60,914 nucleotides of DNA from Cladosporium sp. IMV 00045 (lineage: Eukaryota; Ascomycota; Dothideomycetes; Cladosporiales; Cladosporiaceae): contig MSJI02000597.1 in assembly GCA_001931905.2 (NCBI GenBank), positions 1-60,914 on the forward strand, written 5' to 3'. The notes under the pieces were generated by a model that made no database searches, was not told where the DNA came from, and saw nothing but the letters and a program-made list of their open reading frames with translations. The translations under genes were made by a program, and so were the position numbers. This document shows positions 18,991 to 41,970 of the stretch, piece after piece. Every line of letters starts with the position of its first letter. Positions within the stretch are counted from its first letter, which is position 1.

Positions 18991-19427
18991 TGCTATTGTC
19001 AGGTAATATTTAAATTCGAAGCAAATTCTCACTTACAACTTGAGAAACGCGACTGCCGTTCTTTCCTAGGAGCCAGGCCTCTGGAGGTTGCTTATGAAGC
19101 GAGAGGCTCATCACCCTGGAATTGGCTTCTCTGCATTCGCGGAACGTTCTCGTGGCCTTGATCATTTCACACCAGGTCGATGCATGTATGGTAGCACTCC
19201 TCGAGGCTGGTTATACCTCTCCATGCTCTTGTCGAGGCACTGCACGAACAATTTAGCGATCATGATCCCAGTACACTATGGAAAAAGTCCGCACGCTCGG
19301 CTCGAAACTCCTCTATCAGCACCGTTCAAGACTTACAAAAACCAGCTCCTGAACCACACAAACATCACGCTCTGCCATTAAATGAATGAGCCAAAAAGAA
19401 GTGTGGATTCCATGGAAAAGATCAAAA
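18991..19427. other. Spacer between P450 and 5S rRNA
   Basis: No supported gene. One 97-codon plus-strand frame at 19088-19381 has no recognisable domain or splice context. Confidence 0.5.
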
Positions 19428-19428
19428 A
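19424..19428 (-). terminator. Pol III terminator of 5S rRNA
   Basis: A run of five T on the minus strand at the 3' end of the 5S rRNA gene, the normal RNA polymerase III stop signal. Confidence 0.7.
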
Positions 19429-19546
19429 CATACAACAGGCGGGATTCCCAGATGGTCACCCACTCTAGTACTAGTCGCCCGGTTCAGTGCTTATGTATGG
19501 CAGAGCGGACGGGATGCCCAGTTTTCACTGACCTATGGTCGTATGT
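19428..19546 (-). rRNA. 5S ribosomal RNA
   Basis: The minus strand reads as a full-length 119-nt fungal 5S rRNA. It starts ACATACGACCATAGG and ends GTTGTATGT, and these ends pair as helix I. Internal landmarks include CATCCCGTCCGCTC, the CTAGTAC segment, GTGGGTGACCA and GGGAATCCCG. The helix II partners (GTCAGTG and CACTGAA) are complementary, which supports a functional rather than decayed copy. The gene lies alone, away from any rDNA, as is common for dispersed 5S genes in filamentous ascomycetes. Exact ends may shift by one or two bases. Confidence 0.92.
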
Positions 19547-31336: not shown

Positions 31337-31350
31337 AAAAACAAAAAAGA
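31337..31350 (-). terminator. Pol III terminator of the tRNA gene
   Basis: Directly after the tRNA discriminator base the minus strand reads TCTTTTTTG and then a second T5 run. This is a strong RNA polymerase III stop and argues that the interrupted tRNA gene is a live transcription unit. Confidence 0.85.
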
Positions 31351-31386
31351 TAGCTGAGAATGGTTTCGATCCATTGCCCTCCGGGT

Positions 31387-31403
31387 TGCTTGTGGATATT
31401 TCC
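31387..31403 (-). other. Canonical tRNA intron (position 37/38)
   Basis: GGAAATATCCACAAGCA interrupts the anticodon loop one base 3' of the anticodon, where nuclear tRNA introns removed by tRNA-splicing endonuclease sit. Removing it restores the 7-nt loop CTCATAA. Its ends could shift by one base because of the flanking A residues. Confidence 0.8.
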
Positions 31404-31414
31404 TATGAGCCCGG

Positions 31415-31472
31415 CTTTTTATCGGATTAGTAATCATTCGATGATGTTGACGTTATCTTTGTATAGACATAC
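31415..31472 (-). other. 58-nt spliceosomal-type intron inside the tRNA body (26/27)
   Basis: On the minus strand the insertion starts GTATGT, carries GATTACTAATCC as a branch-site match (TACTAAT) near its end, and finishes AAAAAG. Its length equals that of the mRNA introns in this window (mostly 53-72 nt). Removing it joins G26 to the anticodon stem and completes a perfect tRNA. The left and right ends are ambiguous by one base. Whether the spliceosome, the tRNA endonuclease or nothing removes it is not known from sequence. Confidence 0.75.
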
Positions 31473-31497
31473 CGCGCTTCCGCTGCGCCACTCAGCT

Positions 31498-40910: not shown

Positions 40911-41970
40911 CTATACAAGCGTCTCCGCCCTCCTGATCATCTCCTCATACACCGTCCAGGCCAGCGCGCTGCTCAACGCCTTCCTTCCGATCCTCAGACT
41001 CAGCCCGTCGAACATGCTCCGCACACCTTCCTGCCGCAGCATCAGACCCGCCGCCTGCACCATATTGCCATACTTAGCCGGCATGAGCTGCAAGCGCGTC
41101 TTGATAGCGTCGAAGGGATTCGTGATCGTCGTCGCCGACACAGCAGCCACAACGCCCGAGATGAAGTTCGTCGACGCAGCACTCGTCGCCGTCGCCGTTC
41201 CTGTCCCTCCTCCAAGCATGGCCGCCCCTCCCTCACCACCACTTGCCTCCAGCACAGCCGCCTCCTTTATCGCCCCCACCTTGGCCTTCGCCTGCTCATA
41301 AACCAACACATAAAGCCCCGCATACGGCGCATCCCTCACCGCCGTCGCGCCAAACCCAGCAAAAAACCCCCGCAGCCCCTCCGAAGCGACGATATGCTTC
41401 GCCGCGCCAGCGAGCGAAGTGTAAGCGTAATACGAGCTCTCATACCGCACCTTCAGCACGGTAACGGGATTCATGACAAAACCAGCCGCGACGCGTGCCA
41501 GCGCGCCCGAGGCCAGATTCGCCGCGTTGCCGAGCTTGGGAAGGGCGGAGGAGGTTGAGGAGGAGCTTCCGGCGACGCCGCGGGCGGCGTAGCTGCGCAT
41601 GCTGTTCAACATGCCGAAGTAGAGCGCCGAGCCGAAGCCCGTGCGGATGACGGAGGGCGTGGTGCCGCGCCAGAGTTGGCGGACCGGGTTGGGCCCATTG
41701 AGGATCGCGGTGAGGGCTTGCGGGAGAGTGGCGGAGGAGGATTGCTGCACGCGGGTTTTTAGAAGGTCGGCGGGTTGGAGCAGGAAGGCGGTCGTGCAGC
41801 CGGAGCCGAGGCCGGCGAGGAAGTGGAATCCTGTTGGGGGTTGTGGTTAGCGGGAGGTGTTGGTGTTGGTGGGTTGTTGGTGAGGCAGAGAGAGATGATC
41901 CCAATGGGTTTGGATGGGGAATTTACGTACCAACAGACGCCTTCTTCCGCTCCTGCACTCCATTCGACAT
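40911..41970 (-). CDS. HEM25: Mitochondrial glycine transporter (SLC25A38/Hem25 family)
   Basis: Inner-membrane carrier that imports glycine into mitochondria for 5-aminolevulinate, the first step of haem synthesis. Two exons, 41931-41970 ([13 protein letters not shown]) and 40911-41830, with a 100-nt intron (GTACGT, CAACAG), give 319 residues. Three solute-carrier repeats are visible through their signatures: [25 protein letters not shown] and [11 protein letters not shown] (PxD/NxxKxR-like). The join creates the conserved entry [40 protein letters not shown] and [20 protein letters not shown] are also typical of Hem25. Between repeats two and three is a Gly/Ala/Thr-rich insert ([20 protein letters not shown]) that looks species-specific. 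Confidence 0.94.

Follow-up and report, generated by a model that had tools for sequence, protein, structure and literature searches.

The window, by which we mean the whole stretch of 60,914 nucleotides analysed here (contig C594 of a 49.9-Mb assembly of 954 contigs, the genome searched throughout), carries an initiator tRNA-Met gene on its minus strand at 31497-31351, as read from the sequence. A protein encoded in the window shows a sequence identity of 93% to a Cladosporium fusiforme protein and of 99% to a further protein, so that the host is related to that species. Exon 1 (31473..31497; tRNA positions 1-26, 25 nt) contains the A box, TGGCGCAGCGG, at 31490-31480. It is followed by a 58-nt spliceosome-type intron at 26/27 (31415..31472, or 31472-31415 in the direction of the gene), which runs from GTATGT to AAAAAG and ends with GATTACTAATCCGATAAAAAG; the branch A, at 31427 within a CTAAT motif (31430-31426), is followed by the last 12 nt of the intron. 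Exon 2, CCGGGCTCATA (31404..31414; positions 27-37), consists of 11 nt of the anticodon arm, including the anticodon CAT. A canonical tRNA intron of 17 nt at 37/38, GGAAATATCCACAAGCA (31387..31403), separates it from exon 3 (31351..31386; positions 38-73, 36 nt), in which the B box, GGATCGAAACC, is located at 31372-31362. The sequence after the gene reads TCTTTTTT, and a run of six T at 31343..31348 is likely to be the Pol III terminator. With an A box, a B box and a T run all present, the gene is a putative Pol III gene.

When both inserts are taken out, a 72-nt initiator tRNA with the anticodon CAT, the pair A1:U72 and the T loop ATCGAAA is obtained, which matches an intronless copy elsewhere in the genome (contig C174) base for base. 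Every arm is paired in its cloverleaf, which has an energy of -27.0 kcal/mol, as compared to -28.3 kcal/mol for the minimum-energy fold of different shape. The original prediction had placed an insert of 58 nt (GT...TACTAAT...AG) between positions 26 and 27 of a minus-strand initiator tRNA with intact A and B boxes and a T-run terminator, and the reading of the gene confirmed the insert and located the boxes and the T run. Its description of the tRNA arms as fully paired is correct for the cloverleaf; it had overlooked the 37/38 intron.

Genes of this kind may escape tRNA finders: ARAGORN, run with the bacterial code, reported no tRNA in the window, and the string 'spliceosom' is absent from the main text of tRNAscan-SE 2.0. 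At gathering scores, the sole Rfam match in the window was 5S rRNA, a full-length gene without an insert at 19427-19546 on the minus strand (model positions 1-120 of 120).

The 58-nt intron had also been likened to the mRNA introns of the window. Candidates with coding support formed six clusters, from which four introns (55, 58, 67 and 78 nt) were kept, partly by selection for the same splice signals. The likeness was assessed on these four introns, and the size range of 53-72 nt given earlier was not reproduced as a census. For the 78-nt intron, the 3' border is probably wrong, as its counted branch motif lies 35 nt from the end. When compared with these four mRNA introns only, the tRNA introns have no distinctive T-rich tract.

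A 34-base core of exon 3, searched with up to three mismatches allowed, occurs eight times in the assembly, always as an exact match. Five of the eight initiator copies carry a spliceosome-type intron, located at 26/27 in C594 (58 nt), C745 (69 nt) and C705 (83 nt), and at 23/24 in C272 and C908 (56 nt each, GTAAGT...CTAAC...AAAAG). A 37/38 intron is present as well, with 17 nt in C594, 20 nt in both C745 and C705, 12 nt in C272 and 10 nt in C908. All five interrupted genes join to the same 72-nt tRNA, that of C174, an intact copy with no introns. The exon 1 sequence of C594 is shared by C705, C745 and C174. The copies on C102 and C454 are intronless and look dead; their D loop has AA in place of GG and lacks one base. 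As to the possibility, raised in the original prediction, that uninterrupted initiator genes elsewhere make the window gene a dead copy, most copies are interrupted, but one intact uninterrupted gene exists alongside the two dead-looking ones. With C174 intact, initiator tRNA could also be supplied by a gene other than the interrupted ones, whose splicing may not be essential.

A scan for A boxes with a 5' splice site behind them yielded two further loci in which a full tRNA encloses the insert, and these led to tRNA-Ala(CGC). Searching with the 3' half from the two loci (up to three mismatches) gave five copies, all of them tRNA-Ala(CGC), at L249-L253 on contigs C185, C768, C864, C345 and C954. 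The anticodon loop TTCGCAT and the pair G3:U70, which we take to be the mark of alanine, are found in all five. Each gene has a spliceosome-type intron at 27/28 (55, 55, 56, 61 and 66 nt) and a further intron, 10 or 15 nt long, at 37/38. In the joined exons, the acceptor, anticodon and T arms are fully paired and the D stem forms three of four pairs; the cloverleaf has an energy of -22.3 kcal/mol, as compared to -24.7 kcal/mol for the minimum-energy fold, which is not a cloverleaf.

The ten introns at 23/24, 26/27 and 27/28 begin with GTATGT, GTAAGC, GTAAGT or GTAAGA, end with AG, and contain a CTAAT or CTAAC branch site whose A lies 11-12 nt before the end, in every case. Shuffled initiator introns showed the full set of signals in 0-4 of 300,000 trials, with 1 of 300,000 for the 58-nt intron of the window under a rule set after its sequence had been seen. 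For the shuffled alanine introns, under a slightly looser 5' rule, the figure was 0-3 of 100,000. At the sequence level, the recurrence of the signals in all ten interrupted tRNA genes is a stronger argument than the shuffling of a single intron.

A block of 19 nt that surrounds the branch site, CGAATGATTACTAATCCGA (window 31440-31422), is present in exact form only in the three 26/27 introns. It is identical in C594, C705 and C745, although much of the remaining intron differs. A possible pairing of this block with the T arm in folds of the precursor was judged unconvincing. When the genome was searched for the block with up to three mismatches, six further matches were obtained, as compared to four for the control, and no multicopy introner family emerged. 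The window gene with its flanks matched the genome at the initiator loci only. An introner-like insertion, as suggested earlier, thus gains no support from the genome-wide search with the block shared by the 26/27 introns.

U6 snRNA is normally the product of a Pol III gene. The only U6 gene found in this genome (L050, contig C83, about 41429-41600, minus strand), in a family search that scored 47 of 2535 candidates and is no census, also contains an intron. It reads GTCCTTCGGGACATTTGGTCAATTTGA, then, after the first 27 nt, a 59-nt GTAAGT...GCTAAC...CAG insert, and then AACAATACAGAGAAG. Rfam aligned the 3' exon and skipped the 5' part. The two exons presumably join to a normal U6, the position of its 5' end being likewise our assumption; given that end, the first exon measures 22-27 nt at all four intron sites, three in tRNA and one in U6.

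The inserts are real and not due to chance, and very likely, judging from the sequences, they are spliceosomal introns in live tRNA genes of two families. We propose, with a probability of roughly 0.87, that the ten nuclear tRNA genes (five for initiator tRNA-Met and five for tRNA-Ala(CGC)) give rise to Pol III precursors from which the spliceosome would remove the first intron and the tRNA endonuclease the 37/38 intron. In all ten genes, the first intron follows shortly after the A box, at a distance of 22-26 nt from the 5' end of the tRNA, and the second is located at 37/38. Depending on its site, the first intron interrupts the D stem (at 23/24), the point where the D and anticodon arms meet (at 26/27) or the stem of the anticodon arm (at 27/28). 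Pol III would transcribe from the A and B boxes and stop at the T run. The spliceosome would then take out the first intron in the nucleus, which would restore the D and anticodon arms, and the tRNA endonuclease and a ligase would subsequently remove the 37/38 intron. This order is suggested by the position of the first intron, which splits the D/anticodon region, together with the contact of an endonuclease subunit with the D arm reported in PMC4090602. The spliceosomal interpretation in the original prediction has been strengthened by five initiator genes with two intron sites, five alanine genes with a third site, and the U6 intron.

Alternatively, the interrupted genes could be dead copies, with C174 supplying the initiator tRNA and an unfound gene the alanine tRNA. 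In favour of this, C174 is intact and the intronless copies on C102 and C454 look dead. However, the exons of the five interrupted initiator genes are identical (72/72), while their introns agree at 73-91% of the aligned bases (0-25 gap columns) and their 100-base flanks at 70-90% (0-50 gap columns), in 5 of the 10 pairs of interrupted genes for both comparisons. The identity of the exons despite differing introns and flanks argues that these genes are alive. Concerted evolution or gene conversion may contribute to it; conversion would presumably need to end at the intron borders. In the alanine genes, the mature parts are identical at 70-72 of 72 positions, as compared to 72-90% for the introns and 62-85% for the flanks (10 of 10 pairs), and the sole two differing bases belong to one compensatory acceptor pair, which is G5-C68 in three of the genes and A5-U68 in the other two. 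Within three mismatches of the 32-base 3' half, the assembly yielded no uninterrupted Ala(CGC) copy. As precise splice signals are, moreover, retained in all ten genes, we regard dead copies as very unlikely.

The introns in the D and anticodon arms might instead be cut by the tRNA endonuclease at unusual sites, like the ectopic tRNA introns known in red algae and archaea (PMC3978253, PMC8450103). At the ten sites, bulge-helix-bulge scores are 6-8 of 10 and are equalled or exceeded by a fraction of 0.11-0.88 of shuffled introns. This test carries little weight, because the 37/38 introns of the initiator genes are themselves only weakly positive, with 0.03-0.29 of shuffles reaching their scores. 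A new endonuclease substrate, the other option raised in the original prediction, is weakened to that extent, and it would leave the GT, CTAAY and AG signals of all ten introns unexplained; we regard it as very unlikely. The access of the spliceosome would be accounted for more directly if the tRNAs were derived from Pol II transcripts, spliced like pre-mRNAs and then trimmed. Yet A and B boxes are present in intact form, all ten interrupted tRNA genes end in T runs of 4-9 downstream, and no T run within the introns of U6 and the five initiator genes exceeds three. Together with the comparable intron of U6, normally a Pol III gene, these features make an origin from Pol II transcripts very unlikely.

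The scan for further families combined A-box starts of TGGC, TAGC or TGGT with GTAWGY and gave 64, 22 and 80 matches, respectively. We scored 59 of the 64 TGGC matches, the other five being the known initiator genes, and all of the 22 and 80. A reversed control pattern gave 60, 64 and 104 matches, close to the real counts, so most matches are due to chance. Three of the five alanine genes, with the 5' site GTAAGA, were missed by the scan, so that there may be further interrupted families. In the Rfam tRNA search, which is no census, 63 of 1428 candidates were scored. A finder run over 978,484 strand-bases of overlapping loci returned the two families and three phage records, in which it has probably fused adjacent tRNAs. 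Several candidates were rejected: L073 and L074 reached 13 of 16 in the T-arm and acceptor score but contained no tRNA by eye, L185 (14) and L219 (13) resembled TGG/GGT repeats, and L171 and L172, with an A-box-like start, had no T arm in the top rows of the score and continued like a coding gene. L239 scored 13. In the search for relatives, no match was obtained in a collection of genome contigs (two patterns) or of viral contigs (four patterns). A general tRNA 5' half matched 14 records of the viral contigs, none with this kind of intron; by eye, 11 were bacterial or phage-type tRNAs and three were not tRNAs.

There are precedents for spliceosomal introns outside mRNA, namely in U6, U3 and rDNA. 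According to PMC5832005, U3 and U6 are the only small structured RNAs so far known to be often interrupted by introns. These mRNA-type introns of fungal U6 snRNA and U3 snoRNA, which the original prediction had mentioned for U6 and which the U6 gene of this genome shows as well, resemble those in the tRNA genes in being short, with GT-AG ends and a branch site, and in lying near the 5' end. In contrast, the host here is a tRNA; it must adopt the cloverleaf fold, and its other intron belongs to a different machinery. The spliceosomal introns in the rDNA of lichen fungi (PMC8527467) likewise lie outside the genes read by Pol II, but in rRNA genes of Pol I. Nuclear tRNA introns are stated in PMC3978253 to occur exclusively at 37/38. 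Such a canonical intron (PMC3978253, PMC4090602) is present in each interrupted gene here, next to an extra intron with spliceosome signals at 23/24, 26/27 or 27/28. The ectopic tRNA introns of Cyanidioschyzon, the Guillardia nucleomorph and archaea are also located away from 37/38, with more than one per gene, but in PMC3978253 and PMC8450103 they are ascribed to a bulge-helix-bulge endonuclease or, in Guillardia, lack a defined motif. Introner-like elements of Dothideomycetes, which are related fungi, are reported to show parallel gains within a 15-bp window (PMC4457414); here, three sites fall within a span of 4 nt in the tRNA, and for the branch block of the 26/27 introns no multicopy family emerged. 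The string 'spliceosom' does not occur in PMC8450103 and PMC4090602, and passages of PMC13130702, PMC4886633 and PMC11782384 contain nothing on spliceosomal tRNA introns. Among the matches listed, no title or abstract opening described a tRNA gene with a spliceosomal intron; the search covered neither bioRxiv nor the majority of subscription papers, and an earlier report is possible.

Genes with one intron per machinery would break both the rule of introns only at 37/38 (PMC3978253) and the limit of one intron per eukaryotic tRNA gene (PMC8450103), as these sources word them. If our proposal is true, two different splicing machines would be needed for one tRNA. Whether the spliceosome can act on a transcript that is uncapped, begins with a first exon of 22-26 nt and has to fold as a tRNA becomes testable, as do the order of the two splicing systems and the route by which introns enter tiny Pol III genes. 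With little more than even confidence, we further suggest that in this lineage the spliceosome is required for most of the initiator tRNA supply and, judging from the copies found, for all of the tRNA-Ala(CGC) supply. The introns would have been gained more than once within a few nucleotides (23/24, 26/27 and 27/28), each time with a first exon of 22-26 nt behind the A box. The spliceosome would have to precede the endonuclease, to which the interrupted arm denies its folded substrate, and translation would be coupled to splicing capacity.

The two dead-looking initiator copies differ from C174 (L037) in that the D loop of C102 (L036) and C454 (L039) reads AGCAAAAG. Its AAAAG|GCGCC stretch is the same as the last bases of the 23/24 intron joined to the exon, and the D loop may reflect either an imprecise deletion of an intron or the change of GG to AA with the loss of a base. 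The loci also include near-duplicate regions: 18 kb of the window, when aligned with 9 kb of C745, are 90-91% identical to it over about 8.8 kb, L036 and L037 are 91% and L038 and L043 78% identical over 3 kb, and L036 equals L039 over 3 kb. Such regions, compared here for the window and C745 and a few other loci, are as would be expected of a hybrid or duplicated genome.
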